Shown here: one piece after another, positions 2,725 to 56,740 of the stretch
How the letters are laid out: each line of letters starts with the position of its first letter
Numbering within the stretch: position 1 is the first letter of the stretch
NCBI GenBank assembly: GCA_029834535.1
Contig: JAQMWT010000064.1
Coordinates: forward strand, 1 to 64,000
Length of the DNA stretch: 64,000 bases
Source of the DNA: Chrysophaeum taylorii
Taxonomy: Eukaryota > Sar > Pelagophyceae > Pelagomonadales > Pelagomonadaceae
Reading direction: 5' to 3'
The notes under the pieces: generated by a model
The model's database searches: none
What the model was told of the DNA's origin: nothing
Seen by the model: only the letters and a program-made list of their open reading frames with translations
Translations under genes and position numbers: made by a program

Positions 2725-2789
2725 TCTCTTGCAGCAAACAACAACCTTGTTCTTTCAAAAAGAAACTGACACTTTGTGGCGATTTCCTA

Positions 2790-4650: not shown

Positions 4651-4689
4651 GGACTCAAAGGCTGGCGGCGCGTGCGGATCAAAGCAGCT

Positions 4690-18757: not shown

Positions 18758-18953
18758 TCGGGGGGGCGGCCATTCCCCGCCTGCGAGGGGTTCCGGCTGG
18801 CAACCGGTTGGCCATTTGCGGGGCGAAGAAGAGGTGAGATAGGCGGGGGGGTTTGAGCAGTAAAACCATAATAAGGGTTTGGAGGAGGGTAAGTAAGTAA
18901 GACATAAAGCTTTACAAAGACAACAACAACAACACATCGTCGTAAAAAAAAAA

Positions 18954-31503: not shown

Positions 31504-31983
31504 CCCTCCCTCTCCCTTCCCTCCGGAGATATTTCTTCTTTTCGAAGGTGGGGATTTTTGCAGGGCCTTTGGTCGGTTGAAACAAACAGAGGGTTTTTTA
31601 AAACTTTAAGTTAATAAAAGGTCGACGGTTTCTGGGGGTACTCTTTAAGGTTTTGGTGCGTTGTTGTGTGGGGAGATGAGGGACCTGCCTGAACGGCGTA
31701 GATAAGGGTACGCGGCACCTATTCGGGGTCATCGTCGAGCCGCGGGGCAGGCGAAGAGACGACGGGCCCCGCCCGTAGGTCGTACGCGGGCCTACCTGAT
31801 CCTTACCCTGAATCGGGGGACTAACAGACACATCCTCCACGCACCACACGCACACCCCCCTCTAAGCAGTCGACCTTTTAACGACAAACAGACAGACAAA
31901 ACCACACACATCCTTCATGCACCACACAAACACACCCCTCTTAGCAGTCGACCTTCTAAAGACAAACAGTCAGACAGACAGAC
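31504..31983. repeat. Upstream flank of the ankyrin gene with an 80-base tandem repeat
   Basis: An approximately 80-base unit (CACCACACG/AAACACACCCCTCT type, then TAAGCAGTCGACCTT and GACAAACAGACAG) occurs twice at 31,831-31,981. A third related copy lies at 25,640-25,700. Before it, 31,795-31,832 matches the TACCTGATCCTTACCCTAAATCG block found beside the Helitron fragments. The promoter of the ankyrin gene must lie in the first 100-200 bases. Confidence 0.6.
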
Positions 31984-32131
31984 GCGCGCAGTGGCGGTCC
32001 GCCATCAACGCCTTTTCATCCCTCGCCTCTACCCAAACTGTGTGATTTTGCTCTGTGATCCTGGACCGGCTCCTGCCGGCCCAGCCTGACTCCCATGCCC
32101 GGGAGAGGTCCGAAGCTAGTTAGTTAGTTAG
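31984..32131 (+). mobile_element. 5'-truncated LINE 3' end, copy 1
   Basis: The last 148 bases of a non-LTR retrotransposon in plus orientation: CGCGCAGTGGCGGTCCGCCA (the AQWRS-type codons seen at LINE reverse-transcriptase C-termini), a 3' UTR with CCGGCTCCTGCCGG and CTCCCATGCCCGGGAG hairpins, and a (TTAG)n tail. It sits inside an expanded (CAGA)n tract, between the two halves of the Helitron-associated block. Confidence 0.75.
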
Positions 32132-32176: not shown

Positions 32177-32291
32177 GGAAAATTTGATTTAGGGTTAGTA
32201 CCCCCCTATCCTAGGGTTAGCTCTCTTACTTCTAGCACATTTTAATTCGGAAAAGCGCTGTGTTATTCACACTGTGCTGCCCTCGTTGTTA
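32177..32291 (-). repeat. Partial inverted LTR of the element A family
   Basis: About 115 bases match the start of the A/C LTR in reverse orientation (AAAATTTGATTTAGGGTTAG to CTCGTTGTTA) and abut the left LTR of element A head to head. Together they form an inverted repeat with arms of about 110 bases. Confidence 0.8.
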
Positions 32292-32487
32292 TAGAGAACA
32301 GTAATTTCAACTGTGTTACCCTTCAGCAGAGTGAGAGCAGTGGTAGTCTGCCATCGTTCTGGGCTCTAACAACGAGGACAGCACGGTGTGAATAACACAG
32401 CCTTTTTCTGAATTAAAATGTGCTAGAAGTAAGAGAGCTAGCCCTTGGATAGGTGGTACTAACCCTAAATCAAATTTTCCATCTCTA
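32292..32487 (-). repeat. 3' LTR of element A
   Basis: A 196-base LTR bounded by TAGAGA and TCTCTA rather than the usual TG...CA. It pairs with the LTR at 42,088-42,284 and the LTR at 52,685-52,878. Confidence 0.85.
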
Positions 32488-32633: not shown

Positions 32634-33480
32634 TTAGTTGATGAGATTGTGGTGAAGAAGAGGTCGAATGAGCTCCTTAGGCCTTCTTGAACTTGTGGAA
32701 CAAGTTGCGGGAAAGAAGTTGTGAAAAATGATCAGCGATCTGGTAGTGAGTAGGACACCAGAGGGGACGAATGACTGAGTTGGCCTGGTAGTCTCGAATG
32801 CGAAATTCTCGCAAATAAATATGACGAGAGGGAGCGCTGACTTTAGGTGATTAGCGACATGTAGTGCGCTAGCGTTGTCAACAAGCAGGGGGATAGCGTG
32901 AGCTTGATCACGTGAAAACAGATAAGGATGAGAAGAGAAGATCTTATGAAACCATTGGCATTCATCAGCGGCTGCGCTAGCGGCGATGAGTTCGGCTTCC
33001 ATGGTGCTTTTGGCAGTAAGAGTTTGGCGTTTGCTAGACCAGAATACGAGGGTGCCAAATACGAAAATACATGCGCCAGAATGAGATCGTAAGCGAGGGT
33101 CAGAACTGTCAGCGAAACTGGCATCAGTGAAACAAATAATAGGCGAACTAAGATGATGCAATTCGGGATAGTTGCTGATAAGATGCTGAATAAAGGGCGT
33201 AATAGAGGGGCTGTCGGATGAATACTCAAGAGCATCATTCGGAGTACCCTTCAAATAGCGAAGTAAAACACATAAATGTAATAGATGGGTTTGCTCAGGG
33301 TTGTGCATGCCTTTACTGCACTCGTTACAGAGTTGTGATATCAGGACGGCATATGACAGAAAAGTAGATACTAGTGCCACAGTAATGGGGAAAATGCTTG
33401 CGTAATAGTTCCAAGGTAGGAGCCGAGTCGGAAAGAAACTTAGCAGAAGGTTTCTGAGTGAGTATTTCAGAGTAAGGGAC
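32634..33480 (-). other. Element A: RNase H part
   Basis: Copia RNase H is recognised by ICFTDASFADSSDPRLRSH, SSKRQTLTAKSTMEAELIA and LLVDNASALHVA, in the family's usual order with the catalytic acidic residues. It is preceded by the HLCVLLRYLKGT connection seen in copia polyproteins. Part of a fossil element. Confidence 0.9.
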
Positions 33481-33568
33481 GTCAGAACTACGGAGGTTAA
33501 GTTTATGCTCGGCGAGCATCGTCTTTATCTTTGCTGCTACATTCATAGTGAGGTGACCAGCGGAGACA

Positions 33569-34480
33569 TTATAATGGACGTCGATACCAAAAAAAGATCG
33601 AGCGAGTATTGTCGTGCCAAGTACCTTTGCCATATTCTTTCTCCAAAGCGGTGCGAAGAGATGTGACTTTGGCGGTGTTGGTGCCGGTGATCAAAAGATC
33701 ATCGACGGAGACGGATAGGAGAACCCTTCTGTTAATAGATCCATCCCAACTGATATATAGACCGGTGTCGACTTGTGAGCGTTCAAACTCGTGTTGTCGA
33801 AGAAACGAGTCAAGCTTAATGTTCCTTAGCTGACTGTTTGAGACCATAGAGAGCCTTGACGAGTCGTAGAGCTAACTTGGACTCTGGGTGGTTCTTCTGT
33901 ATCTGCTGGACAAGGTTCTGCGAGACACGAATTCCACGAGGTAAGTCGATCCATACCGGGCGATCAAGTGCCGATTGGATGAAGGCCTGGGGAATATCCG
34001 CGTGTGCAACGGGGAGCTTGTGCTTCACAGCGATGGCGAGCTATAACGGGTTGTGGCGAGCATCGCGGTTGGTGAAGATGTGGCATAAAAGTCGATGCCG
34101 ACGCGTGCCAAGAAACCTCGGGCAACTAGACGAGCCTTGTATCGGTCTGGGGTGCCGTCGGCAAAATACTTGATCTTCAGCACGAATTTCGTCGAGATAG
34201 ACGAACGGTCTGGCGGTAAAGGTTCTAGCTCAAAAACGCCGTTGGAGCACAGTCCTTCAATTTCCTTGCGAATCGAAGCAATATGCTTGAGCTTATCCTC
34301 TTCGCCGAGTCCTTTGAGTTCGACGATCTTCTCGGGCTCATAGACAATGTCATCAGCAGTCACGAGCTGTAACATGACATGGTCGATGTGCTGTAAGTCA
34401 TAGTCCATAACTTCTTGGAGAATGTATTGATTCGGATCACTTTGACTTAGGAAAAAGGTGTCCGAGTTCGCCAGAATCAT
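33569..34480 (-). other. Element A: reverse transcriptase part
   Basis: Copia RVT_2 phrases occur in order: FVLKIKYFADGTPDRYKARL, VAHADIPQAFIQSAL, LVKALYGLKQS and SVDDLLITG (the YVDD-type active site). Part of a fossil element. Confidence 0.9.
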
Positions 34481-35800: not shown

Positions 35801-36640
35801 TCTTATGCAGCAGAGCAAACGGGTGGGGTAATATTCGGCGCGAATAGGCTTTCCTTCAATGCGGACGCTGCGCAGATTAAGGAGGCGAACGACAGTGCCT
35901 CGAGTATTTTCTTTGATGATGTTATCCGCTAAGTTCCGCTGGTGTAGGTGGCGACCAATGATTTGAAGTTGGATAACAAGTTTCACCTTGAGCGGGTGGA
36001 AAGCTTCGGAGCGGAATGTGGAAAATGCATCAGATGAGATGATTTTCACACTTACATCGAATTCGACCTTAATCATGTTGACCACGAAGAGGATGCCAGC
36101 AAGAACGTCCTGCGCGTCCAGTTTCCTCAGGAAGTATACCCATTTGTGTGCCGAAATAACACACACGAAGTGCATTATGTAGCGGAATCCACCATAGCAT
36201 TTACTGATGCTCGGGTAGGATACGTCCATGTGGAGATGTTGGCCAGGAGCGTAGGCCAGTTCATCCTGAGACCAGGAAGCGTTCTTGTGACTGAAGCTGA
36301 CATGCGATTGACAGCGCTTGCATTCGCTGCAGTCTTGCAGATACAGATCATCACCTGCGCAGAGGTTCGTTACGTTAGCGGCAATCGTTCGGCGAAGAAT
36401 CTGGGGTTGCTGGTGGTGTATGCGGCGCCAGCGAGTGACCAAAAGCACTCTTTTTGCGTGCTGAGTGGTGCCGGGCTTATGAAAGGGGGGCAGAGCTGCA
36501 GTCGAAGCGCTAGGGGGGTTGGGTCGCTTGTCGATTCTGACTTTAGCAACGGTGGCCTCGGCAAGTAGCGTCTCGAGGTTTTTCGATTTGCGTGGCTTGC
36601 GGATCGCAGCATGGTGGGCATCTGCAACAGCATTGAAGAG
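35800..36640 (-). other. Element A: integrase part
   Basis: A His/Cys zinc region (CKRCQSHVSFSH) precedes a DDE core: HMDVSYPS (first Asp), IISSDAFSTF (second Asp) and RNLADNIIKENTRG (Glu region). This is the retroviral-type integrase fold that inserts the cDNA. Part of a fossil element. Confidence 0.8.
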
Positions 36641-36768: not shown

Positions 36769-37725
36769 TCACGTGGTGATGCGATTCGTGGAGTGCGAGG
36801 ACAGCGCTGTACTTTGCCTGCAGCATGTGGTGCGGGACGGCGTTGGCAAGTGCCTTAAACGCGAAGTACGGCGGGTGCTGTTGGAACAAGCGAAGCAGTT
36901 CCGGGTCCGAGTGGTGTCCAAACTTTGCGATTTCGTTGAGAGTCGCGTATCGGATGTGTTCGGGAGAGATCGGCAGTAGTGCGTTGGAATAGCTCGTGTT
37001 GGTTGGGTACGAGCGGTGACCGAGTAGCACTTGGTGCTTTTCTGGAGTGTGTCGCTGATGTGGCCAACATAGTCCGCGTAGGTGGGACGTGCTTCGGACA
37101 TTACGAGTCCCGTGGGGCCATCGAGGATTATCCGCCCTTGTGAGTCAATCGCAGCAAAGCCGGGATGCGAGCGATTCAAGTAGTGGACCCACGTGGAGGG
37201 GCGCGAGCAGCTGTGAGCGGCTGCCAAGGAGCTGGTGTAGGCGGCGACCAGAAAGGCGGTGCCCTTGGGAACATCCAGGGAGAAGGTGTGCGTTGGGGAG
37301 AAGACTGTGGGTTGGTGTGAGCAGTCCAATATCTGAGGGGGCCGTGAATGCAAGGTGAGGGATGCGCGCGGGAAGTAGCCACATGCGACGGCGGTGGCGG
37401 CAGTGCCGGAGATGGCTCCATCCAGGTGGTAAGCACATTGTGACTCGGAGGCGTGAAAGCATCGAAGTGTGTTCCAGGCGGCGAGAGTAGGGTGCTGGGA
37501 CAAATGATTGTGCAGCAGTGTAAATACCAAGATATGTTGGATGGTGGTCATCGAGGCATAGGGGGTACCGTCGGCTTCCAGGCCGAGATCCATGAAGGGC
37601 TTCTTCAGGCGTGCAAGCATTTGGCAGAAGCGTGCATTCTCGGAAATCGAGAGTTGGGCAGCATTGGCGGGTGCATATGAGAAAATGGCTTTGTGTCGAT
37701 AATAATCCAAGGTGGAGCGGGTCAC
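36769..37725 (-). other. Element A: unassigned domain between methyltransferase and integrase
   Basis: About 300 residues with phrases such as ISENARFCQMLARLKKPFMD and VFSPTHTFSLDVPKGTAFLV. The same region is kept in element C (56,792-57,620), so it belongs to the family. I see no known domain. Part of a fossil element. Confidence 0.6.
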
Positions 37726-37848
37726 TGTGCCGCGAAGAGTGGGGTTGGCTATCCAGAGATCGCCGGGGATAGTGTGTGGTTGGGTCCAGGAGGGGAACCA
37801 CGCGCGGAGGAGATATTAACCAGGGAGAAGCGGTTTTCTCGAGGTTGT

Positions 37849-38037
37849 GACATCCCCTTCAACTCGTGGCACGACCTCGCACAAGACCGCGCGCAGTGGC
37901 GGTCCGCCATCGACGCCTTCTCATCCCTCGCCTCTACCCCAACTGTGTGATTTTGCTCTGTGATCCTGGACCGGCTCCTGCCGGCCCAACCTGGCTCCCA
38001 TGCCCGGGAGAGGTCCGAAGTTAGTTAGTTAGTTAGT
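37849..38037 (+). mobile_element. 5'-truncated LINE 3' end, copy 2, inside element A
   Basis: The frame reads LAQDRAQWRS, the common C-terminal phrase of LINE reverse transcriptases, then a 3' UTR with the CCGGCTCCTGCCGG and CTCCCATGCCCGGGAG hairpins and a (TTAG)4 tail. Comparison with element C, which lacks it here, shows it is an insertion. No clear target duplication is visible. Confidence 0.8.
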
Positions 38038-38932
38038 AGCCGTTTAGCGGGTGTCGTGCGAAGACAGCGAGGTAGCGGTTCTTGCTGATGACGACGCCAA
38101 AGGCGGGGGCATTGTAGACACCGGAGTGTCGGAAGTAACCCATGCTTTGATAGCATTTTGCGAGCTGGGCGTACTCGTGGTGGGTTTGCGGGTTTGGTGG
38201 TACGTTCTCGACAATGGTGTATGTCGGGAGCGTGCAACGAACAAAGCGAATTTGTTCTTTGACGAAGAGGTCGGCAGTTGCTGGAGTGGCATAGCCATCG
38301 TAGTCTTTCATTACACTCAGGTGTTGACAAGGCAAGGTGAAGACAGCCAAGTCAAGTTGAGGTAGTCGTAATTTGCCGGCTTGCAAGGCGGCAGTGAGTT
38401 TTCTGAGATCCTTATAATGCAGAGCGTGCGGGAACAGTTGCTGCGCGCGGGCGCGCATAGTTGGGTTGATTTCACAGGTGGCAACGACAATGATGCGTTT
38501 GTCGAAGCGTTTGCGAAAAGAGGCGAAACCCTCTTGGTGAAGTCCACCTGCAATAATGGCTGTGTGTAGCGGAGGGGGTTGTGCTTGCACAGAGAGGTCG
38601 GCTGAGCCAGTGAATGTATATTGGACGAAAATACGCGGCAGTCCTATTAATTCCGTCAGGAATGCAGAGTGATTTTGCAGTTTGGCGAAATCGAGGAGGT
38701 GAGATTGCGAGCGCGCCTTTGCTACTTTCTTAGTGATGTTGGTAATTTCATCCTTGAGGGACATTTTTGTGCCGGTGTGGAAACTCATCACAGCGCGGAA
38801 TGTTTGCTTTGGATGCGATAGCAGAGATAAGAGACCATTGGTTTGGCGATTGGCGAGAACTACTGCGGTCGTCCCTAGAAGCTTTCTGCAGTCGTGAGGG
38901 GCTGATGTGGAGTTGGTCAGAAGTTCATACAA
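38038..38932 (-). other. Element A: C5-cytosine DNA methyltransferase domain
   Basis: About 295 residues with the ordered motifs of C5-MTases: motif I/II (AIIAGGLHQEGF and VVATCEIN, the SAM pocket), motif IV (FTLPCQHLS, with the Pro-Cys-Gln catalytic Cys), motif VI (YTIVENVPP, with the ENV glutamate), and a motif VIII-like stretch (FGVVISKNRYLAVFAR). The motif IX/X helix is not obvious. It lies between protease and integrase and is shared with element C. The domain would methylate cytosine in DNA, perhaps the element's own copies. Part of a fossil element. Confidence 0.85.
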
Positions 38933-38971
38933 GTACGGTTCGTGCGGCAGCGGGGGGTCTGTTGCCTGTAC

Positions 38972-39350
38972 TAACTAACTAACTTCAGACCTCTCCCGAG
39001 CATGGGAGCCAGGCCGGACCGGCAGGAGCCGGTACGGAATCACAGAGGAAAATCACGCAGTTGGGGCAGAGGCGAGGGACGAAGACGGACTTGTTGATGG
39101 TGGACCGCCACTGCGCGCGGTCTTGTGCGAGGTCTTGCAAAAGCGTCGCAGGCTGCGGACGTGTTGGTCCACGGCTCCGTCGCGTTCTGCCCAACCGAGC
39201 GAACCCCATCCCAGCGCGGACTTTCCGGGTGCTAACCGGCCAGCCCGGGAGGCGAGCAGGCACCGTCTCACTCCGGGACGGCCGGGGCCGCCGCAGGGAG
39301 CAAGCGTGTTAGGCGCCGTCCTCCATCGCAACCAACGGTTAGCGATCGCA
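38972..39350 (-). mobile_element. 5'-truncated LINE 3' end, copy 3, inside element A
   Basis: A 379-base LINE tail on the minus strand. The protein frame reads GWPVSTRKVRAGMGFARLG and LQDLAQDRAQWRSTI before the stop, then the two-hairpin 3' UTR and (TTAG)3. It is flanked by the 13-base direct repeat CTGTTGCCTGTAC (38,959-38,971 and 39,351-39,363), and element C lacks the insertion, so this is a target-site duplication from target-primed reverse transcription. Confidence 0.9.
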
Positions 39351-40036
39351 CTGTTGCCTGTACGTTCAGAGCTTTCAGTTGAGAGGTCGCTATAACCTGT
39401 AGACCTGGCCTGAAGTGCGGGACGACCAAAAAGACTAAGTATAGTGCGTAGCCTGTGGAATCTTTAATATCCTGTGAGTAGAGACCTGCAGCCTGTAAAT
39501 ACAGAGGCTTGACACCAATGAAATGGCTGGGTATTGTCCCTCTGCCCATGCGGATGGTATGTTCGGGAATCCTACGTATGGACTCGGGAACAAAATGTTG
39601 CATTGTGCGAGTGAAGCAAAAGGATGCGCCACCGTCAATTAAGGAAATTTCTGTGCCGGGTCCATTGCATCCGTGTATAGAGTTGGTCTTGGTGGGTGCC
39701 TTTCCTGTAGTGTAAGTGGCACAAAGAAATTCTGCGACTCTGGGTGAAAGTATCGATTATGCTGGGAAATGTTTCATCGTGAGGCTTGGTGCCTGATTTA
39801 GGAGAGTTTGGTTGGCGGCACAGGCGTCGTCGGCAACCATCATCGAAAAAGCTGGCTCTGACGGAGAGCATGCATATAGTCGTTGTGACGTTGTGCGTAG
39901 TCTTCGGCGGAATCGTCTTCATCTTATATTTCGGGGATTTTATCGTCGTAAAGGCATAGCTGTCCGTGATCATCTTAAAAACCGAGGTGGCCTTGGTCAT
40001 CGGCGTCGTCGGCTGCGCCCTCATCTGGTGGATCAT
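39351..40036 (-). other. Element A: aspartic protease region
   Basis: This corresponds to the element C region that carries an ISLIDGGAS-type active-site phrase (Asp-Gly-Gly-Ala), followed by TIRMGRGTIPSHFIG and GYALYLVFLVVP. Copia proteases cut the polyprotein. Part of a fossil element. Confidence 0.7.
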
Positions 40037-40141: not shown

Positions 40142-41999
40142 TCATGCGATCCGAGTTGGAGGTGTGTTGGCGGCCGGCTTGACTAAGGTTCCGGATGATC
40201 TAAAGGTTGCGACGAACATCACGGAGGGGGACTTTGAACCGTTTGTCAGGAGTGGATGACTTTGGGGGGTGCGTTTAGGTGGGGAAAGTGACTTTGCGGA
40301 GGTGCGGGTGCTCGCGTTTGTCTGGGGTGACGGGAGAAGCACGGGGGTGTTGTTTGTTCTTGGTTGGGGTGACAGGGGTGGCCTTGGGCTTATGGCTGTC
40401 ATTGATGTCGTAGTACGATGGTGAGCGAGGATTTGGGGCTTTTTGGGTGGAGTTTTCGTGGGGTGGCGTGAGAGTTGCTTCTTGTGGTAAGCATGAGGGT
40501 GTTGGATGAGATCGGTGTCGTCATTTGGATCGAGGTTGGCTTCCGTGAGAAAAACGGCAACAGGGTCGGTGTCTTCCGGGGATGCTTCATCAGGATCCGG
40601 AGTGTCATCATCTTCAGAGGGGGAGGTGTCGTCGTCGTCTTCGGTGAGGTGGAGGCCATGACGGCGTGAGCGAAAACGGGGATTGTCTTTGTCTTTGGTC
40701 GGCATTCGACCGAAGTCAGTGACGAATCGCAACGGCTTGAAATTCAGGGTGGATTGAGGCTTTAGGTGAGCCCAAAAGTTGCGCTCAAATGTGGAGATAA
40801 CCGGGATGCGGGCAATCAGCTTGGGCAAATTGTTTATCGCCTCTTTGTCTTCGTCGAGTAACAGTGAGTCGTTGGGGGTGCGAAGGCAGTTTGCAAGACG
40901 TGCGGAACCTTTGATATAGGTTGGGGCGCGGGAGTCAAGTAAGCATGGGGGGTATTTGAAGCGGAGCATTAAGTGGATTTCATGTTGTATCGTATTGTCG
41001 CTGAGTTGGAGAAAAGGGCCGTCGGTGATTTGACGGAGCTGTTGTTGAACGTGGCGCATATAATCTATGTAATGCGCGGGTTCGTGGATCTCCGGGTTGA
41101 ACGGCGTGTCCAGAAAGGCATTGAAGACATAATGCGCATGATGGACGTGGTTCTGGCCCGTGTGCTTGTCAAGTGCGAGACGGACTTGTAGTACGAATTC
41201 GAGTCCTATCGGATGGGAGGATCCGAGTGCATCTATCTCGTCGTATGCCGGGTGCTTGACAGGGTCGCTGCCGGCGTGAAGGAAACGGCGAAAGAGGGGG
41301 TGCACTGTCTCGCGGAGGTACACGATGAAGTCGGCATCTTTTCCTTGGAGATGTGGTTGTGTGATCGGATACAACTTTCCTTTTGTCGTATCGGTCGCAT
41401 CTTTGTCTTGGTCTTTGAGTTCTTGGAGTTTTGGTTCGTATACTGTTTCAAGGAAGTGTTTGCCGAACTTGCGGTAGACGCCCTTGTAGTAGACGAAGCG
41501 GCCTTGGAAATCTTGCGTATTGCCGGCTGTGGCATAGTTGTCGGGGTCCTCGTACTCCTTGATGCAGTGGCTTAGGAGAGCGTCTGCGAGATCGTTAGAT
41601 CCGCGTAAGGCGGATGCCCACGTGTAGAAGCCTTGAAGGAAGTATTGCGTGATGCCGGTTTTGGGCATGAGATGTTCAACGAACAACTGCATAACGCGAA
41701 ACGAGAGCATTTGGGGGGTGACTTGAGCGCCGTCCATGGACTTGAGGACAGAGCTGGGCGGGTCACTGAAGATGTTGGTTATGTTCTTGGGGTCTTGTGG
41801 AGCTGGAGTGGGGGAGGGGGGGCGCTGCGGCGACGGCAGGTGGTGGCTGCATGGCATTGACTCGTGCTTCGAGTGCTTGTATCGCTTGAGCTTGTGCTTG
41901 GATGCGAGCGTCGTATTCTCGAGCTTGTGCTTGCATCTCCCTTTGATACTTCGCGTCTTGATCTTTCATCTCCTTTTGGAGTTCTTGATTGGTTGGCAT
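40142..41999 (-). other. Element A: gag
   Basis: An N-terminal coiled coil (MPTNQELQKEMKDQDAKYQR) precedes a large helical gag frame of about 570 codons (ITQYFLQGFYTWASALRGS, YKGVYRKFGKHFLE), then a Pro/Thr/Asp-rich tail. No CCHC knuckle was seen. Part of a fossil element. Confidence 0.75.
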
Positions 42000-42087: not shown

Positions 42088-42284
42088 TAGAGAACAGTAA
42101 TTTCAACTGTGTTACCCTTCAGCAGAGTGAGAGCAGTGGTAGTCTGCCCTCGTTCTGTACTCTAACAACGAGGGCAGCACGGTGTGAATAAAACAGCGTT
42201 TTTCTGAATTAAAGTGTGCTAGAAGTAAGAGAGCTAACCCCAGGATAGGGAGGTACTACCCCTAAATCAAATTTTCTATCTCTA
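42088..42284 (-). repeat. 5' LTR of element A
   Basis: A 197-base LTR (TAGAGA...TCTCTA), the partner of 32,292-32,487. The sequence just inside it, GGTAACGGGCACCAGTCCGG on the element strand, is the probable primer-binding region and is shared with element C. Confidence 0.85.
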
Positions 42285-42512
42285 AGTCTCCTTAGCTTTT
42301 CAACCAAAGGACTGTTGCTTTAAACCCTCGTCATTCGGATAACCGTCGGACTATATAACTGACAATGCCATGCCCTACGAACTACTGCAGTATAGTGCGA
42401 GATTTTTCGAAATGGGTGGGATAACCACCACCCCTTTCCGAAGTTTTCTTTGTTCGCCAGATCAGCACACAACAAACGGGCGGAGATCGAACGAACGAAC
42501 GAACGAACGATT

Positions 42513-43830: not shown

Positions 43831-46800
43831 CGCGTTTTAGTTATATGCGATATTTCGATATCTCGTACGTCTTCTTCGGATCGTGCGAGCGTGCGCGGAT
43901 CGCGGCACGTATATATTATTTGTTCCGCTGAGAGTTCAGCGAAGGTGGTGTTTGGCCAGCCGCAGGCGTCGGAAGGAGCGCCAAAAACGAGGAAGTCCTC
44001 GCACGTCTTTGTGTTGACGTTACTCCTGCACTAATTCCGTCCGTTGCGAACGCGATCTCTTCCTTACCCTTCTTCTTCCCTTTTCTCCAAGTCCTCTGAT
44101 TTGCGTCAAGCTCATCATCATGGTCTAGCACGTCCCGTAGGTACGTAGACTTACAATTTAAACTAGGTGAAGTTCTACATGTCGTCTGTCGTGTGCTGAG
44201 GCTAGGGGAACTAACCTGTTCCCTGAACTCTAACCTGCCAGACTCACACGGTGAGTCGGGATGGTTCTTCAGTGACTTTATACCACTGCCTCGCGGAATA
44301 CTCTGCAGGTTATGGGCCCAGCGGGGTCCTGAAGAATCATGTGTTGCATACACGTAACTGTTGGGTATTGGACTGTTGCCGCGCCAGTCTATCCTCGCCA
44401 TGCAACACGCTTGTTTATATATTCTCAACATGGGCTGTACATCTCTACACCGCACACGTTAAGACTGCGCAACCTTGTGTGCTTGTTTATATGTCATCGT
44501 GTAGTCGTGAGAGTGTTGATGTGTGTGTACTCTGCTTAACTGTACTGATTGCACGCGCGCTATGGAATATTGTGGGTATGTCCACTTGGACACTCCACGA
44601 TGATGCGCTGGCAGCTCTTTCATTAGAGCACAACTTACCACAACTGCCAGTCGTGCTAACCTTCACACTGAATGGAATCACAGTTTGTACAGTTGCTATA
44701 TAGGCATCTTCCGTCGTTTAACACATGAGTGTACATAGACACCGCTAGACTGAGCCCCCTAGAATGTCTAGAAGGAGTCAACTCTGCTCTGACAGAACCC
44801 ACAAGTTCCCGTCACCGTTCTCATGGAAGAGCGAGCAGCAAGAACTGCACCCAAAGCAGTCACGGGTGCAGACATCCATGAACTTGATGCGCCGGTTGTT
44901 GACTTCCTCAATGAGGGGAACCGCTTTCAATTGCAAAGCCGGAAGGTGTCACTCACTCCAAGTGCGCCAGATCCGTTAGATGCTTGGGTTCCACCACGCC
45001 GAGGCCCTCTTCGAGTTCGACTCGTATGAAGCCTACACAAGATCATGTGCTGACTATGAAGTCATGCGCAATGGGATACTTGACCTAGTCTTCCTGGAAT
45101 GGCAAAACGCCAGAGTGGCGGAACTCAACCTCGGATCTGTTGAAGATTTGCCTCCTGAATATCAGAACTGGCAGTTCACAGCTGAAGCGCTCCCACACCT
45201 TCCAGACCCCGAAGTAGCACAGTTGGCCACTGTCTGCTATGATAACGAAGTCCGGGCGATTCGCCCCGAAACTAACGATTGCTTTAAGGATGGTGAGCGT
45301 AATCTAAATCTCACTTATCCTCGCGAACTTGCCTTTGATGGCAGAATCAACGCATCAGTGTCCATGTTTGCTTTAACACATGCCGACTGGCATACTTACC
45401 AAAATACGTATGCAACTTTCTTGTACACATACTTTAATCACGAGAGCATTAACAAACCCGCTCTCGCGGCCTGGCCAGCCATTACTGAAAGTGTATAATA
45501 AAGACTACCTTCCTAACAAAACACGAGCTATCATGCTCATAGCATTAACTTTTTACGAAACTGTGTCTTCTGACGATGTCTCATATTTGAAACAGCAATT
45601 TACGCTGTCGTGCATAATCCTAACTGGCATGTACATGTCTTCATTGAATGTGTGCAGTCTTTCAGGCATCTCTTGTTCCAACTTAACCAGAAGGAGACTA
45701 GTTTTCAATTTGATCCGCCCAAGTTGTGCAGGAAAATTTACGAAGAGGTCTACAAACATTTCGCCAACAATACCAGCAATAACAGGTACGACAGAGGCTG
45801 GGTCGAATGGTGTGTTACCTATTAGACTCGTACATCTCCAAGAGCTCAACCTGGAGTTGACAGACTCTGTCATCTGTCGAACTCATCTCACATCTTAGAG
45901 TTCGCGCTCGATCTATATAACTCCTTATCCAACGCGGAGGACAAAAGGCGCCTTGAGCCTCCTGTTTCCTGGATTGCCTATGTGGAAGGTCTGTCTACAC
46001 ACCAGAAGCCCAAAGTTCTGCTCACTCAACTGGTGGACACTACGGACTCTGAACTTGACCATACTGCTCATGTGTTCGCTTCACTTACTGCCGCAGCATC
46101 TGGACCTTCGAAACCCCAGTTTAACGCTAGACGCCTCAGAAACGCGAAAGATGCAAGTCGACCGTTCTCTCGCAATGATCTGAGTTATTATCGCCCTGGT
46201 GACTCTTATGTTACCAAATCACGTGGTCCTGGTCATCCAATGATCGACCCGTGTATGCACGAACTTTCGATCGCTCTGCCCGATCTGACATGAAATTGCT
46301 CCATGGCACCAAGCATACTATGCATGCCCTTAAAGAACAATGCAGAGAACTCCCCAAACATGCTTCGCAGAACGCGACTACGTCGCAACTGCAAGAAAAT
46401 ATTAACAAGCTGTTTGAGACACTACTACAATCTGCTGACATCATCGCAACTACTGCTTCGGACGATAACACTGAAGTCCTTCGCTTTAATGATCAGCTCC
46501 AGTATGCTGAAGACATCATGCGTGATGCTCACACACATCTGCTTTCGACCGAAATGTCGCTAAACTATGGACAAGAACAACCTACTGCGCCTGGACCCAA
46601 CTCTACTCTCCCCACTGGCTCTGATGGCCCTACTAACGCCATTTCTACTTCCGCCGAGTCGGTAAAGTTTACTCAAGCTCCCATTGCCCAGCTTTCTCCG
46701 GAGCAGCTAAATCAGTATCATCTCATGTGACAGCAGCGATGTGCCGTCACAGTACTGCTCAAGCTACGGTGCAGTCGAACAACTCTCATTTAACTCAAAC

Positions 46801-49800
46801 GACAGTCGCTGGTCTATCGCCTTTTGACCTTGAAAGTGGTTTAGGTGCCGACAATGGGGAACCTACTCCCCCAGTCGCCTCTGTCAAATTCACGCAGGTA
46901 ATTTTCATGTCCAGGCTGCTAAATCAGTCGAATTTGTATGCAGCTAGCATTCCTTCTACCAGTGTCCATCGTGAAAACCCCTTTCAAACTAAGTATATGA
47001 GGGAACGTAGCCTTCCCCTCCACTTTTAATTCCTCTATCTGGATAGCTGTGCTGTGCTTCTATCTCGCTAATGACAACGTTTGACTTCGCAATACCTAAC
47101 CGCGTTGTACCTATCGATCCTAAGATCGCCCTGTTGTTCAAACCGCCTCAGGTCAACAGCAAGTTTCGCACATAATGTTAAAAACGAATATCTCTCTTCC
47201 TCGAACATGTGAAAGGACGGCATCTTTTCATATTGTCTGCCCCAGAGTGGAACAAAGCCCAACTGGCAGTTACGCTTAACAGCAGCGATCAACCCAATTT
47301 ATCTCACCTCATCAGTCTTATAGACAAGGATGTCAAGGTACCCATTCACTTTGTGGACCATGATTTACCAGCGTTACCTTGCTTACCATATGCTCTTGCA
47401 CGTGACAGGAACATGGAACTACGCTCATTGGCATTCCCGCTGAAATCGTATAATAAAAATCGTGACCTGTGTCACTACTGTACGTACCTCTTACCAAACT
47501 ACCTTCGCGTCCTTGGCTCCGCCCATTACTACTGAACCTTCGCAAACGTAATGACTATGTGCGTAACAACAGAATGCCATTGGCCTGACTACATACGCGA
47601 CCAGTGTTCTTATCTGTTGAACATGGCAAGCCTCGCAAGCCATCTGTCATGTTACTCTGTTCTGGTTTATCAACCCCTGCGTTTCTGTCACAAGCCAATA
47701 ATGACCTGGTCTTGAACATCAATGATAAAATTGTTGTCGAGTTTGATGATACTCTTGTACGCATGTTACGTAGACGACTTCCAGATGTCTTAATTTTCCA
47801 ATCCCTTCCCTCCTTTTTCAATCACCTCCACTCTATCACTGAGGAGGAGAGACGTGAACTGTATTGTGACATCATAGAAATCACACCCCCTTGCACTAAC
47901 CGTAACTTGTTGAAGAACACCGAAACTTCCGAGCTGGTCAGCCTACTTGACTGCTCTATTTTATAGCATGCTTACCGTCATCAAGCTGCTCAAGCCCCTC
48001 GTTCTTCTGGCGGAGATGACTCCCCCACATAAACAGGTGCACCGTGATCATTTTCCCGTGGCCAATCTTATTCATGCCACCCTCAATTACACGGTTGATG
48101 TGATCGACAAACTTCCCACATACCTCTGCGGCGATTATCAATCGCGAGAAAGGTGGATTTGTGTTGCTCGTAGGTATAACACGGGGAACATTGACATGCT
48201 CTCTTGGCCCAATCAACCTGCTAAACGGTTTCTGGACATTGCAGACGATATCAACTCTATCCCTAAATGACTCTGGCTAGCGAAAGATCTTGCTGAAGAA
48301 TGGACCCGCATCTACCCTGATCCTCCTTTGGTGCCTTCACCTGAAACTTTTCCTCTATACTCGCGCACAGGTTCTGTTCGGTTAAGTATGAATGAACTTG
48401 AAACCTTTAATCTTTTGTTCCTCAGGCTTCATTCCCAACAAGCTCTCGAAGAATCCACCCACGAATCGCACTCTGAATGCACTTATCATAATTTGGGTTT
48501 TATGAGATCATCCAATATGCCGCTACCAGGATCATCTAACCCCATCCGCCTCAAGGCGTTCATCACTCTCTGCAGTGTGTTCGCTAGGCTCTCGCCTAAC
48601 ACATACACTCATGTGTCCTATTATGTCACGATTTTCGAAACTAACCAATCCGCACACAGGTATTCTTTACAAACTCTTCATCCAACTACAACATCCACTT
48701 CCTCACTGGTGGCTAACACTCCGAAGGTAACCTCCTAGTTGAGAACGAGGTCAGCAAGTACAAGGCCTCTATTGATCCATTTGGATCTGCCTACACGTTC
48801 ACCGCCTCCGATAACCCTGCCGACAAGTTTATTCACTTGGACTCGTTCCAAGGCTACCTCTTTCTCGTTCAGGCTTACCCTCGGGTCGACACGGCTCGTG
48901 GCACCCTTCCTGTCATCCGCAGTCTACTAACTCAGTGTGACCTAGCTATGCCGCACTGTGTCGCCCACGATCCAGCTCGCGACCAACTTTCGTTTAAGGA
49001 CAAGCACTTTGCCCTAGAAGATTACCACGTTTCCCACGGTCGGTATCTCGGCTACTTACGGGATAGTGATCGCAAACTTGGCTCCAAGATCCACTCGATG
49101 CTTGCCCCCTTGCCCACAATACGGGGATACGCCAACATTATCCTACTCGACCCGCGTAATGGTAAACTTCCATATCCCACGCGACCCCAGCTCATTAGAG
49201 CAAAGAACCACTCTCGCCCTCAAGAGTCCTTCTTGCTCTCGTCGAAGAAAGATTTTTGCTGTGATCTTATCAGCAATGCTTTGCCTGCTGGCACTTATCA
49301 CACGCTCTATACGCATATCTGTCGTATAGTTATCGACATGAAGTCCCTCATGTTGGACCCTACCTTTCAACACGATACTGCCATTCTGGAGAAGACATAT
49401 TTGTCTACTTTCCTCACTCGTGAACTGTCCCCTTTCAGTCACAGTTCTGATACCATTTCTCAGGTAGATGCATTCATGAGCTATATCGCCAACCGAAGCT
49501 GGACCGAAATGTCGTTAAACTACCGCTCCTCTGGAAATGCATCTGAAGAAGCACTTGCTTCGTCAGTCTCAAATGCCAATGAGCATGCGGACGTGGACTC
49601 CACCGATGACGGCAACGTTCCCTCCTTCGACCCGGGTGCTGAGCTCAAATTCGGCGTTCGGAGGAAACGGCACATACCCTTTTAATCGATTCTAATTAAA
49701 ATCATCGTGGCAAATCCCTACCGCATGGCACTGTCGAATATCAGAACGCTAAAGAACGTGCCAACCGCTTCCGTCGGGTTCACCATTGCCCTGACAATGT

Positions 49801-52285
49801 GGCAGCCAAAGCCCTTGACGTACTTGCGCGTCCTGGCTTCTCGGCATCAGACATTCCCTATCGGGATATCTGCATCGACTGCATCCGTCATAACAAACGT
49901 CACCGCCATGATCATCATAATCCAACCAAGCCCAATTTTGAACAAACTCACCAACCCGGTGAAGTCCGGGCTTGTGACGGAGGCTACGTTGTCATTCCTT
50001 CAGAATGGGGTGGTTTCACTCATATCATACTCTTTAAGGAGCTGCTGTCGAAATTCTTGCTGGTGTAATTTACGCGCACCACCAACGCAACTGAGTTCAC
50101 GCAAGCTCCGGGCTTTCTGCACGCATTCTGCAGAACCTAACTCAATGTCCATCTGCGCACAGTTTACTCTGACGCTTTAGCTCGCATGTGACAACCCCCT
50201 ACCGTGTCGATAAAGGCATCAATCTCGTGGCCTTTCCGCCTTACCTACACTCGTTTAACCACGAGGTAGAGCAAAGCATAGGTTTCATAGCCCCGGCCTC
50301 ATCTACCCGCCTTCGTAACCTTCTCAACGCCCACTATCGTGGCGCTAAAATTGTTGAGCCAGCCATTCACTTTCCCTGGGCTGCCATCCACACCATACAG
50401 TCGTATAACATTCTGCCTAACGCTACTCTTGAACGCATTCACAGCGCCATCAATAGCCCTCAGCAGTTTCTTGACAATCAACTGAGAACACCTCAACATG
50501 ATCTTCTCAAAATCTTTGGTAGTGAGTGCTTCCTTCTCTTGGAACCTCATAAACACCATAAGTACGAACCGTCGCGCCGCAGATATCTTTACTTATGCTG
50601 CGCCAACTCGCAAAACCCGCTTGTCTCTCCACGTGTTGATCACCAGGCAGATGTCGTTCTCAACCCGAAGAGCGGGCAACTTCGCGTCTCCTCAAAGCTT
50701 ACCTTCACGTACATGCTCCAACGTTCCGCCCTTGATCCTGAACATGCTCCTCCACCTGTTCCTTTCGACATTACACCCCATCGAGATGATGACCCCGATG
50801 ATGCGCTTCAGAGGGGGAATCAACTCAAAGGGGGCACGCCCCTACTCCTGCTTCTCCTCCACCCGCTCCCGCTCCGTCCTCGTATCAGCAGCAGCCTCCT
50901 GACACCAATCCCACAGCTTCTCCTGCTGTTGACGACAACGCTATCTCGCCACCGCGTATCCTACCGTCTTACTAGGACCTGCTTTCACAAGATCACCTTG
51001 AACTTGTCCCAGGTTCTCGGCGCCCCAACCAACGCAAGGCTTCCTCCATCGCGTCTATCACTGCCCGGCTGCAGGCTTCTACTGTCGGCGCCTACAAATC
51101 CGCTGTTAGCAAACTCGCTGACTTTCGATGGACCTCCAGCATCGTTTCCTTGATTTCAAATCGCCACCCATTCCACCCTCAACACCTCTGGTGGTATCCA
51201 CTGGACAGCTCTCAATTACTGCTATGTTCCCTGAACATGCCTCTGCTTTTGGCGTCTCTCCGTTGCAATACGCTTACGCTTACCTATCACCCACCAGCTT
51301 TATCGATCATAACGTCCATGCCTCGTCGTGCATACTCCCTGGTCATCATCTGAGTTGGGATCTACGTCATCCTCACTATCTGACCTGGAGGAATATCTCC
51401 TCTTCTCTACCGAGTACATTACTCAGGTTCTCCAGGAGGAACCAATCCTCGTGATTCACCTAGGACCGGACTCTTAAACCCCTTCCGCTTGTTCTACTCA
51501 CGCTTATGCTGAAGTGTTGTACGCTGCTTCGACCGAAAAGTCGTTAAACTATGGCTCCCCAGCCACTGTAGGTCCGGACGAATACAAAGTCCAGGAAGCC
51601 GACATTGCTATCGACCAGTACAGGCTCAAGTGCCTATAAGGGCTTACTCCTAGAGACCGACAAGCCTACATCAAGGCGATCGCAAAAGAGCTACACGACA
51701 TCATCCGCTTTGGCTGTTTAAGCTAGCTTTACCTGGTGCCTCGACTCGTCCAATTGACAGTCGCCTGGTGCTCAAGATCAAGAAAAACTCCACCGGCGAA
51801 TACATCAAGCACAAGGCTCGGTTAGTCTTGCGTGGCTTCTTAGCTTCACTTGGCGCCAATTTTTTCGGGACATTTAGTTCCATGGCGACGATGACAGCTA
51901 TACGCGTCATCCTAGCCATTGCTGCTCACAAGAACCTCCCAGTATACCACAGTGACGTGCCCAACGCGTTCGTCCAGTCCGACATCGATGCGCACGTCTA
52001 CGTTCAGCTCCCTGACGGTATCAAGTTGCTTGATGATCCGCAAGACGATAAGTATCGCGGCCGCCGTTTACCCAAATTGCTTAAGACACTGTACGGACTC
52101 CGGCAATCCCCTTTACTTTGGAACAAGGAGATCGACAAATTCTTTAGGAGTCTTGGCCACAAACGACTCCAGGCTGATTCTTGCTTATATGTCCGTGTCT
52201 CTACCGACTCCCGCTTTCTTATTTGCAGTCTATCTGTGGACGACATCGTCATAGTTGCCAACGATGATACCAGCGTTGCACATTC
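43830..52285 (+). mobile_element. Copia element B
   Basis: A second Ty1/copia family in plus orientation; the left limit is approximate. Parts seen: an untranslated leader (to about 44,820), a gag-like region (about 44,823-46,730; ALFEFDSYEAYTR matches element D), a long middle region (to about 49,685), an integrase-like region (about 49,800-50,560, with CIDCIRHNKRH and CDGGYV), and reverse transcriptase (about 51,720-52,285, LVLRGFLASLGANFFG, YHSDVPNAFVQSDI, SVDDIVIVA). No RNase H or right-hand LTR is seen. It is broken (more than ten breaks) and has no methyltransferase domain. It appears older than element D. Confidence 0.8.
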
Positions 52286-52400
52286 ACTAAGCCCTCCCAG
52301 TGAACACGGCTCACTTCACTAAGCAAGTCTAGTGAAGTGATGTGAAGTGAACACGTCGACCTACGTGGCGATAGTGAAGTGATGTGAAGTGAACACCAAT
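52286..52400. repeat. GTGAAGTGATGTGAAGTGAACAC short tandem repeats
   Basis: Two copies of AGTGAAGTGATGTGAAGTGAA plus shorter pieces in both orientations lie at the broken right edge of element B. They mark a junction between element and host DNA. Confidence 0.7.
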
Positions 52401-52548: not shown

Positions 52549-52683
52549 TTAGATGATGTGAACGACCTCGGTGTCTTCATCTTCTTCTTCCTCCACATCC
52601 ATCTCGGGAGAGTCACCGTGGATGGTGCTCTCGGCGTTTTTGAACTCGCTCTTGGCGAGGTCGCTGTACCTGATCCGGGCCAC
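52549..52683 (-). CDS. C-terminal exon of an unidentified host gene, cut by element C
   Basis: A 44-codon minus-strand frame ends at 52,549 and reads VARIRYSDLAKSEFKN, then a strongly acidic tail (MDVEEEEDEDTEVVHII). Codon use (GAG, GAC, CTC, AAG) matches the host gene block, not the retroelements. Its upstream side touches the LTR of element C (52,685) directly. The LTR edge supplies an AG just before GTGGCC, so the junction may also coincide with an exon boundary. The rest of the gene should lie to the right of elements C and D or be lost. I do not recognise the protein; acidic tails of this kind occur in many nuclear proteins. Confidence 0.55.
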   Translation of the reverse strand: MARIRYSDLAKSEFKNAESTIHGDSPEMDVEEEEDEDTEVVHII

Positions 52684-52684
52684 C

Positions 52685-52878
52685 TAGAGATAGAAAATTT
52701 GATTTAGGGTTAGTACCCCCCTATCATAGGGTTAGCTCTTACTTCTATCACTTTTAATTCAGAAAAACGCTGTGTTATTCACACCGTGCTGTCCTCGTTG
52801 TTAGAGCACAGGACGAGGGCAGACTACCACTGCTCTCACTCTGCTGAAGGGTAACACAGTTGAAATTACTGTTCTCTA
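52685..52878 (+). repeat. 5' LTR of element C
   Basis: A 194-base LTR, TAGAGATAG... to ...TTCTCTA, matching both LTRs of element A. It is followed by the same GGTCACGGGCACCAGTCCGG primer-binding region. Confidence 0.85.
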
Positions 52879-54011: not shown

Positions 54012-54401
54012 CAACTTAACTAACTTCAGACCTCTCCCGAGCATGGGAGCCAGGCCCGGACCGGCAGGAGCCGGTGCGGAATCACAGAGAAGATTCGCGC
54101 AGTTGGGGCAGAGGGACGAGGACGGACTTGTTCGTGGTGGACCGCCACTGCGCGCGGTCTTGTGCGACGTCGTGCATAAGCGTCGCAGGTCGCGGACGTG
54201 TTGGTCCACGAATAATCGACCTGTCCGTCGCGTTCTACCCAACTGAGCGAACCCCATCCCAGCGCGGACTTTCCGGGTGCTAACCGGCCAGCCCGGGAGG
54301 CGAGCAGGCACCGTCTCACTCCGGGACGGCCGGGGCCGCCGCAGTGAGCCAGCGTGTTAGGCGCCGTCCTCCATCGCAACCAACGGTTAGCGATCGCAGG
54401 G
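54012..54401 (-). mobile_element. 5'-truncated LINE 3' end, copy 4, inside element C gag
   Basis: A 390-base minus-strand LINE tail, nearly the same as copy 3 and truncated at almost the same 5' point (GCGATCGCTAACCGTTGG on the element strand). It is flanked by the 11-base direct repeat CCACAAGATGC (54,001-54,011 and 54,402-54,412). Element A lacks it here. Its 3' tail is short (TTAGTTAAG). Confidence 0.92.
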
Positions 54402-56109
54402 CCACAAGATGCTCCGCTTCAAATACCCCCCAAGCTTACTTGACTCCCGCGCCCCAACCCATATCAGAGGTTCCGCACGTCGTGCAAACTGCCTTCGCAC
54501 CCCCAGCGACTCACTGTTACTCGACGAAGACAAAGAAGCGACAAACAATTTGCCCAAGCTGATTGCCCGCATTACGGTTATCTCCACATTTGAGCGCAAC
54601 TTTTGGGCTCACCTAAAGCCTCACCCCACCCTGAATTTCAAGCCGTTGCGATTCGTCACTGACTTCGGTCGTCTGCCGACCAAAGACAAAGACAATCCCC
54701 GTTTTCGCTCCCGCCGTCATGGCCTCCACCTCACCGAAGACGACGACGACACCTCCCCCTCTGAAGATGATGTCCCTCCGGATCCTGATGAAGCATCCCC
54801 GGAAAACACCGACCCTGTTGCCGTTTTTCTCACGGAAGCCAACCTCGATCCAAATGACGACACCGATCTCATCCAACACCTTCACGCTTACCGCAAGAAG
54901 CAACTCTCACGCCACCCCACGAAACCTCCACCCAAAAAGCCCCCAAATCCTCGCTCACCATCGTACTACGACATCAATGACAGCCCTAAGCCCAAGGCCA
55001 CCCCTGTCACCCCAACCAAGAACAAACAACACCCCCGTGCTTCTCCCGTCACCCCAGACAAACGCGAGCACCCGCACCTCCGCAAAGTCACTTTTCCCAC
55101 CCAAACGCACCCCCCAAAGCCATCCACTCCTGACCAACGGTTCAAGGTCCCCCTCCGTGATGTTTGTCGCAACCTTCAGATCATCCGGAACCTTAGTCAA
55201 GCCGGCCGCCAACACACCTCCAACTCGGATCGCATGACCAAGCTCATCAACCTCATCACCACTATCTCCGACGAGATACTCCTCTCAGAGGCTGATTCCG
55301 ACGCCGCCGAGTTTCTTCACGTGTTATCATCCGATCCCCAGGATGATCCACCAGATGAGGGCGCAGCCGACGACGCCGATGACCAAGGCCACCTCGGTTA
55401 TTAAGATGATCACGGACAGCTATGCCTTTACGACGATCAAATCCCCGAAATAGAAGATGAAGACGATTCCGCCGAAGACAGCGCACAACGCCACAACGAC
55501 TATATGCATGCTCTCCGTCAGAGCCAGCTTTTTCGATGATGGTTACCGACGACGCCTGTGCCGCCAACCAAACTCTCCTAAATCAGGCACCAAGCCTCAC
55601 GATGAAACATTTCCCAGCATCATCGACACTTTCACCCAGAGTCGCAGAATTTCTTTGTGCCACTTACACTACAGGAAAGGCACCCACCAAGACCAACTCT
55701 CTACACGGATGCAATGGACCCGGCACAGAAATTTCCTTAATTGACGGTGGTGCATCTTTTTGCTTCACTCGCACAATACAACATTTTGTTCCCGAGTCCA
55801 CATGTAGGATTCCCGAACATACCATCCGCATGGGCAGAGGCACATTAACCAGCCATTTCATTGGCGTCAAGCCTCTGTATTTACAGACTGCAGGTCTCTC
55901 CTCGCAGGATATTAAAGATTCCACAGGCTACGCACTATACTTAGTCTTTTTGGTCGTCCCGCACTTCAGGCCATGTCTGCAGGCTATAGCGACCTCTCAA
56001 CAGAAAGCTCTGAACGTACAGGCAACAGACCCCCCGCTGCCGCACGAACCGTACTTGTATGAACTTCTGACCAACTCACATCAGCTCCTCACCACTGCAG
56101 AAAGCTTCT

Positions 56110-56740
56110 AGGCACGACCGCAGTAGTTCTCGCCAATCGCCAAACCAATGGTCTCTTATCTCTGCTATCTCATCCAAAGCAAACACTCCGCGCTGTGATC
56201 AGTTTCCACACCGGCACAAAAATGTCCCTCAAGGATGAACTTACCAACATCACTAAGAAAGTAGCAAAGACGCGCTCGCAATCTCACCTCCTCGATTTCG
56301 CCAAACTGCAAAACCACTCTGCATTCCTGACGGAATAATAGGACTGCCGCGTACTTTCGTCCAATATACATTCACTGGCACAGCGGACCTCTCTGTGCAA
56401 GCACAGCCCCCTTCGCTACACACAGCCATTATTGCAGAAATCTCCCCTTGCCTTGTCAACACCTGAGTGTAATGAAAGACTACGATGGCTATGCCACTCC
56501 CGCAACTGCCGACCTCTTCGTCAAAGAACAAATTCGCTTTGTTCGTAGCACGCTCCCGACATACACCATTGTCGAGAACGTACCACAAAACCCGCAAACC
56601 CACCACGAGTACGCCCAGCTTGCCAAATGCTATCAAAGCATAGGTCACTTCCGACACTCCGGTGTCTACAATGCCTCCGCCTTTGGCGACGTCATAAGCA
56701 AAACCGCTACCTCGCTGTCTTCGCACGACAGCCGCTAAAC
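56110..56740 (+). other. Element C: methyltransferase region
   Basis: This matches the methyltransferase frame of element A, including PCQHLSVMKDYDGY and YTIVENVPQNPQTHHEYAQL, so the domain belongs to the family and was not gained by one copy alone. It is broken here. Part of a fossil element. Confidence 0.8.

Follow-up and report, generated by a model that had tools for sequence, protein, structure and literature searches.

C5-cytosine methyltransferases (C5-MTases) captured by retrotransposons are known from dinoflagellates and a charophyte, in which they occur in LINE, DIRS and Gypsy-type elements, and a Copia link for DNMT3 is already in print (PMC5890265). In Symbiodinium, the intronless DIRS element SymbioDIRS-Dnmt3 (de Mendoza et al. 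2018) has a tyrosine recombinase and, within pol, a DNMT3-type C5-MTase that is under purifying selection and methylates CG in yeast; a self-methylation model was proposed for DIRS elements with a DNMT (PMC5890265, excerpts). In KnitGypsy-Dnmt3 of Klebsormidium nitens, an LTR-type pol encodes a DNMT3-type enzyme among domains of Gypsy type, and the repeats are DIRS-like; SymbioLINE-Dnmt is an orphan, non-DNMT1/3 C5-MTase that is encoded in the upstream ORF of a high-copy LINE with reduced CG content (PMC5890265, excerpts). The same paper describes Symbiodinium Copia elements as being without any DNMT domain (PMC5890265). Diatom Ty1/copia elements (CoDi), which are Copia elements of a photosynthetic stramenopile, are methylated and become de-repressed when DNMT5a is lost in Phaeodactylum, and the excerpts of that source mention no MTase domain in them (PMC9998398).

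The family described here is named the A family after element A of the window (the whole stretch of DNA that was analysed, 64,000 nt). Like SymbioDIRS-Dnmt3, it is intronless and has a C5-MTase in pol with purifying selection acting on the domain, but it is an LTR/copia element with an integrase, its enzyme has PCQ and ENV motifs of the prokaryote type, and its host is a probable ochrophyte rather than a dinoflagellate (PMC5890265). It shares an LTR-type pol containing a C5-MTase with KnitGypsy-Dnmt3, and an orphan enzyme in a high-copy retrotransposon with SymbioLINE-Dnmt, but differs from the former in domain content, repeats and enzyme type, and from the latter in element class, in the position of the MTase and in having no CpG-decay signature. 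Phage and prokaryote C5-MTases (PHROG_116, M.HhaI, M.HaeIII) are its best sequence matches and have motifs II–VIII and the fold of the front half in common with it, whereas the A-family domain is 24–30% identical to them, has its motifs VIII and IX separated by ~300 residues, and is fused into pol. The Copia-type capture adds to the captured C5-MTases already known in LINE, DIRS and Gypsy-type retrotransposons; a search of the open-licence literature found no report of a Copia element with a C5-MTase of this kind.

The methyltransferase domain and its place in pol

In element A, the domain begins in the minus-strand open reading frame 38036–38974, which has 313 codons in the ORF list of the window; frame 1 of the plus strand over 38038–38932 contains many stops. 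The minus-strand frame matched PF00145 (C-5 cytosine methylase) in Pfam with 38.8 bits (E 9.8e-10), above the curated cut-off of 22 bits, and PHROG_116 with E 6.9e-13, which bears out the C5-MTase assignment made for this segment in the sequence-only reading. The NCBIfam dcm model matched with E 1.7e-9 and 37.7 bits, under its own cut-off of 100.65. When an HMM of 22 phage/prokaryote C5-MTases was run against the 865 six-frame stretches of the window, this frame was found with E 1.1e-9, and the only other match with E < 1 was a fragment of element C (56331–56735, E 0.0018). Alignment of motifs II–VIII of the element MTase with the 22 enzymes by hhalign gave E 4e-11 and 30% identity over 135 columns. 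Motifs I (IIAGGL, 38540–38557), II (CEIN, 38465–38476), IV (LPCQHLS, 38315–38335), VI (VENVPP, 38195–38212) and VIII (ISKNRY, 38072–38089), as we take them to be, follow one another along the minus strand. The ordered motifs claimed earlier for a frame of about 295 codons are thus present, but 139 codons precede motif I and the domain is longer than was claimed. Across the family, motif I (IIAGGLHQ) departs from the usual FxGxG and motif VIII reads SKxR in place of QxRxR, these being usual forms and not defining ones by the Pfam model. Because of the off-standard motifs I and VIII, we place the domain in the homologous C5-MTase family and not among proven active enzymes.

The frame 38036–38974 holds only the front half of the MTase (motifs I–VIII, 38036–38650, minus strand), which aligns to the MTase of L012, a genomic copy on contig C96, in addition to matching PF00145 and PHROG_116. 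In L012, a single unbroken frame of 1952 aa comprises a protease region (recognised by position and motif), the MTase, the integrase (rve, residues 1016–1110, E 0.0061, under the cut-off) and, downstream of it, PF07727 (RVT_2; residues 1686–1933, E 1.6e-38). After motif VIII of L012, ~300 residues are followed by RYATLNEIAKFG...ALANAVP, which in a MAFFT alignment with 59 phage/prokaryote MTases falls on motifs IX and X, with R504, E510 and N540 nearly invariant. Of 120 known MTases, 112 contain a loose IX–X pattern, which occurs a single time in the L012 frame, at this position, and turned up in 17 out of 5000 shuffled sequences; the patterns were composed after the sequence had been seen, and a strict form, which matches 1/120 known MTases, was worthless. 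An HMM of the IX–X block alone did not find the element, its top score being a shuffled sequence. Taken from the alignment and pattern, motifs IX–X are likely to be present downstream in A-type MTases, ahead of the integrase. The corresponding parts of element A, both on the minus strand, are the middle part between motifs VIII and IX (37012–37848, aligning to L012, with 37012–37776 86% identical to L012 residues 508–762) and the likely motifs IX–X (RYATLNEIAK ... ALANAV, 36836–36952). By its position, we would guess that the middle part is the target-recognition region.

The remaining parts of element A, likewise on the minus strand, comprise the 5′ LTR (~197–200 nt, 42088–42287), a 607-aa gag frame assigned by position alone (40145–41965), the protease region with an IDGGASF sequence that is presumably the protease motif (39352–39879, aligning to residues 1–176 of the L012 frame), the integrase (35807–36355, 89% to that of L012), a broken RT with two stops (33596–34258, 63% to that of L012), an open RNase H region (32637–33524) with the motif TAKSTMEAELIAAS, which we take to be that of RNase H, and the 3′ LTR (32292–32487). 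Pfam matches were obtained for the RT (RVT_2, 33572–33871, E 3.6e-10) and, under the cut-off, for the integrase (rve, E 4.3e-4); the gag frame, 39271–39756 in the protease region, and the RNase H region gave none. The 3′ LTR is a direct repeat of 42088–42284 with 92.9% identity, so element A is not young. An insert of ~187 nt (37849–38035) breaks its MTase; the adjoining 37780–37848 matches element C and is part of the element. The insert has repeat relatives in the window, 148 nt of it being 96% identical to 31983–32130, with related stretches at 38970–39138 and 54017–54175. Because of this insert and further frame breaks near 37777 and 37012, element A is unable to encode the whole domain.

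The short repeat (37849–38035, 31983–32130, 38970–39300, 54017–54398) lies twice within element A, once within element C and once beside element A, in both orientations, and resembles a small non-autonomous element. Next to the 3′ LTR of element A is a truncated LTR that is inverted relative to it (32178–32301, 91% to the 5′ LTR of the element), which suggests a nested or rearranged insertion.

Element C, on the plus strand, begins with a 5′ LTR (52682–52878, 93% to the LTR of element A); a 3′ LTR was not found in 60000–63999. Its protease region (55500–56078) aligns to residues 1–193 of the L012 frame and its integrase (58229–58780) is 88% identical to that of L012. Between them lie MTase motifs IV–VIII only (56448–56705, by alignment to L012), followed by the middle part and motifs IX–X in two frames (56699–58122, 82–87% to L012), and L012 residues 314–384, with most of motif I and motifs II–III, are unmatched. 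The earlier claim that element C has the same domain in the same place holds in so far as a partial MTase precedes the integrase, but motifs II–III and most of motif I are missing; since these are absent and the remainder is spread over several frames, element C cannot encode the whole domain either.

The genome of the window (70.8 Mb, 697 contigs) contained at least 57 PF00145 matches among the 123 of 474 candidates that were scored, with all 57 listed lying above the cut-off; two are host genes, and some of the other 55 are A-type by presumption. With the L012 MTase as query, at least 82 matches were obtained from 72 of 788 candidates scored, a lower bound, and 14 of the 82 listed are stop-free over at least 600 residues. 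Merging the two lists gave 98 distinct MTase places, a number that possible duplicate contigs (C10/C297, C25/C521) would lower slightly and the scoring limits might raise considerably. A second long frame, of 1868 aa, also contains both the MTase and RVT_2. Among the 94 best-scoring of 153 integrase matches listed, 60 are preceded on the same strand by an MTase match, most commonly ~268 nt away; for the other 34 no MTase is among the matches listed, and at least one of these, element C, carries the domain in part. The A-type LTR is present in all 18 of the 10-kb element loci examined (L011–L028); L012, L015, L016, L017, L025 and L028 are examples of loci with an LTR match at each end. The domain is therefore a family trait, as the sequence-only reading had proposed from two copies, and its occurrence extends well beyond the window. 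Neither of the refuting outcomes named in that reading, a missing C5-MTase match or a domain confined to the surroundings of these two copies, came about. Elements A and C are best explained as decayed copies of a Ty1/copia LTR retrotransposon family with the pol order protease–MTase–integrase–RT–RNase H; Pfam, profile and genome-wide searches all support the place of the C5-MTase between protease and integrase.

Selection and probable origin

The MTase domain of the A family is under purifying selection. Pooled dN/dS over 35 copies was 0.158 for motifs I–VIII (595 pairs), 0.246 for the middle part and 0.222 for motifs IX–X, compared with 0.126 for the integrase core (406 pairs), 0.194 for the RT (105 pairs) and 0.209 for the protease region (593 pairs). 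In the eight copies with an open MTase, the values were 0.156, 0.225 and 0.197 for the three MTase parts and 0.092, 0.144 and 0.241 for the integrase core, RT and protease region, and a shifted-frame control gave 1.4–2.0. All these figures include neutral decay of dead copies, and the two window copies are pooled under one name in the set of 35. The values indicate that the front half is constrained about as tightly as the RT and the middle part less so. The cysteine and the glutamine of PCQ are each present in 34 of 35 copies, the glutamate and asparagine of ENV and the arginine of motif VIII (R192) in 35/35, and G36 in 32/32; over 17 key residues, conservation ranges from 29/32 (the asparagine of motif X) to 35/35.

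No CpG-decay signature was found in the A family, in which third-position C/T differences amounted to 0.212 before G, 0.214 before C, 0.217 before T and 0.150 before A. The observed/expected CpG ratio is ~1.0 in elements A and C and 1.1–1.4 in window stretches outside the elements. It is lower still (0.84–0.96) in element B and the element D region, in which the enzyme is more diverged or none was seen, so the lower CpG of A and C cannot be attributed to the A enzyme.

With an HMM of the catalytic half of the A-type domain, each of the 120 phage/prokaryote MTases listed gave a score, with a median of 18 and a maximum of 39.6 bits; these enzymes were gathered with one phage MTase and represent one corner of the family. 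Host DNMT5 scored −1.7 bits and host DNMT2 gave no match. By this measure the domain is closer to the phage/prokaryote MTases than to host DNMT2 and DNMT5, which counts against those genes as its source. In sequence searches of PDB, the MTases that appeared were of prokaryotes and phages with weak E values (0.018–0.37), accompanied by unrelated chains in the single-sequence search, and no DNMT1 or DNMT3 chain appeared up to E 10. The element MTase found no relative in protein databases at E 1e-3 or at E 1, nor did scans of viral and genome contigs, which rely on shared short words or patterns that distant relatives may escape.

AlphaFold2 gave a pLDDT of 29.5 on element sequences alone. With MTases in the alignment, pLDDT reached at least 70 in 14 of 19 ten-residue blocks over residues 21–210, stayed below 50 in the middle part and was 41–71 in motifs IX–X. 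The 50 PDB matches listed in a fold search with this MTase-aided model were all C5-MTases; DIM2, DNMT1/MET1, DNMT2, DNMT5 and bacterial enzymes matched alike, and no DNMT3 was among the 50 listed. Since MTases were in the modelling alignment, the fold matches are support and not independent proof. Together, the HMM scores, the PDB sequence matches and the fold matches without DNMT3 make a prokaryote/virus-type enzyme the likely source of the A-family MTase and DNMT3 an unlikely one. The suggestion that this capture was separate from the known ones is upheld as far as it was tested, the domain being nearer to prokaryote/phage MTases than to host DNMTs and its PDB MTase matches, at weak E values, being of that kind.

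A more diverged stretch in a second Copia family

Element B (44980–52322, plus strand) lies between elements A and C and belongs to a second Copia family. Its RT (51714–52280) is 38% identical to those of L012 and the A family, with an RVT_2 match at 51654–52319 (E 8.5e-37), and its integrase (49727–50182) is 25% identical to that of L012 (E 4e-7 and 1e-6). Ahead of the integrase, on the same strand, are MTase-like motifs I–IV (CSGLST, VEFDD and PPCTNRN; 47595–47963, 70% to the B-type frame of locus L047), motifs VI–VIII with the sequence that follows (AEMTPP and QSRERW; 47953–48702) and a IX–X part (NALPAGTYHTLY; 48663–49679); NALP is also found among these motifs. PF00145 matched 47914–48267 under the cut-off (E 0.018). 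The 698-aa frame of L047 matched no Pfam family and gave E 0.067 with PHROG_116, a PDB search with the B-type stretch returned unrelated chains only and no MTase, and comparison of the B profile with the phage/prokaryote MTase profile alone yielded nothing useful.

The A and B domains match each other collinearly. BLASTP of L047 against the A-type domain gave E 0.002 for motifs IX–X and 0.048 for motifs IV–VIII, and each of the A and B HMMs found motifs IX–X of the other as its best window frame outside its own family, with E 0.0047 for the A-type HMM (best outside A and C) and 0.0051 for the reverse search. Compared with the A profile, the B profile scored 28.1 (E 0.015) over motifs I–VIII, the best of 40 column-permuted controls reaching 23.3; against a profile of A with MTases it scored 49.1 (E 1.9e-5), the best of 40 permuted controls reaching 24.1. 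At least 150 genome matches to the B-type stretch were obtained from 683 candidates, with frames of up to 1691 aa; among the matches listed, it lies 2.5–6 kb upstream on the same strand at 39 of 150 RVT_2 places, and downstream or on the other strand at none. From the profile comparison, element B would carry, at the position in pol that the MTase has in the A family, a collinear MTase-like stretch that has diverged much further. It has PCT in place of PCQ and EM in place of EN, with QxRxR kept, and the first two changes lower the likelihood that it is an active enzyme.

It is possible, if somewhat doubtful, that the A and B families captured MTases separately or that the B stretch is something other than an MTase. 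The RT identity of 38%, the PCT and EM motifs and the poor matches of the B stretch to phage/prokaryote profiles, PHROG_116, Pfam (for the long frame) and PDB would agree with this, but both stretches occupy the same place in pol, the profile scores exceed those of all controls over collinear motifs, and motifs IX–X find each other reciprocally and by BLASTP.

Two further Copia-like elements were observed in the window. Element D (61359–63944, plus strand, reaching ~68888 on contig C64) has an 861-aa frame with no significant Pfam match; its start resembles the B-type gag-protease by eye, and RVT_2 is found at 68163–68888 of the contig. Another Copia RT, 28% identical to that of the A family, lies at 9718–10632 (plus strand), with no MTase-like HMM match of E < 1 nearby.

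The host and the proposed role of the domain

The host is a red-plastid alga, with an ochrophyte as our best guess. A red-type rbcL (484 aa seen) is on a contig of 103.6 kb, and its best PDB matches are, as we take them, diatom rubiscos, with red-algal ones lower in the list. SecA, which is plastid-encoded in most red-lineage algae, was observed beside the elements as a single frame of 927 aa (12047–14830, plus strand); its leader is signal-peptide-like and followed by a phenylalanine, which we presume to be the plastid-targeting motif of the red lineage. The genome encodes DNMT5, with MTase and SNF2 in a 2086-aa frame (contig C621), and DNMT2 in one 360-aa frame (contig C634), both named from domains and motifs, and has one SRA-domain match; none of the PF00145 matches listed in this six-frame search without introns was recognisable as DNMT1 or DNMT3. 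The earlier impression of a stramenopile is consistent with rbcL, SecA and the DNMT5 and DNMT2 genes. DNMT5a is reported to occur in several groups, diatoms and pelagophytes among them (PMC9998398, excerpts). Elsewhere in the window, four 130-nt direct repeats (20050–20665) lie inside a formin (FH2) frame (18897–22544), and 2785–5984 is dense in repeats, both direct and inverted, with simple sequence of the TTTGTCTG type among them.

We give about an even chance to the reading that the A/C family carries a captured prokaryote/virus-type MTase, selected within pol, that methylates the element's own cDNA. Activity, substrate, target sequence and benefit are predictions of this reading, which builds on the observed domain, its place in pol, its copy number and the selection on it. 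The MTase, cut from pol or held in it, would be present in the virus-like particle alongside integrase and RT, its position beside the integrase suggesting delivery with the pre-integration cDNA. It would add 5-methylcytosine to double-stranded cDNA before or at integration, and a host with DNMT5 and an SRA-domain protein could copy the mark set by the element. A new copy would then be born marked and might either be shielded from a nuclease or sensor of unmethylated foreign DNA or be quieted at once, sparing the host.

The main rival, for which we see a credible but clearly smaller chance, is that the domain is no longer catalytic and has been retained in pol because it binds DNA or chromatin and so directs integration, a role that chromodomains have in some other LTR elements. 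Its position directly ahead of the integrase, the off-standard motifs I and VIII of the A family, the PCT and EM of the B family (although QxRxR is kept there) and the missing CpG-decay signature would all fit such a module. However, the residues tied to catalysis, namely the PCQ cysteine and the ENV glutamate and asparagine, are retained in 34–35 of 35 A copies, above the region mean of 0.869.

Methylation of RNA (the element's genomic RNA or the primer tRNA) instead of DNA is quite unlikely, since the profile matches are to annotated phage/prokaryote DNA MTases and not to host DNMT2, even though DNMT2, an enzyme of the same fold, acts on RNA and the A family has no CpG signature. The LINE-borne relative SymbioLINE-Dnmt gave no DNA methylation in its one yeast test, and RNA was suggested for it (PMC5890265, excerpts). 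The broken state of both window copies might hint that the MTase frame arose by chance, is a passenger in a few copies or belongs to an adjoining host gene, but this can be dismissed: the genome-wide count rules out a chance frame, a neighbouring host gene and a trait of two copies alone, and besides the 98 places, the spacing to the integrase recurs, there are pol frames that are long and unbroken, and the domain is under purifying selection.

An extended version of the self-methylation reading holds that a prokaryote/viral-type MTase entered Copia pol in this algal lineage before the A and B families split and has stayed in Copia elements ever since, and that the A enzyme is active and provides transposon-encoded de novo methylation that a host relying on DNMT5 maintenance copies, so that the element starts its own silencing; taken as a whole, we regard this as unlikely. 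The capture by Copia elements of another type of enzyme in a red-plastid alga would make MTase capture by retrotransposons a repeated theme, and if the B stretch is the same domain, its presence in two Copia families that separated so deeply indicates long maintenance. For hosts with DNMT5, the question is what starts methylation on new insertions, and the A family is a transposon-encoded candidate answer that is directly testable.
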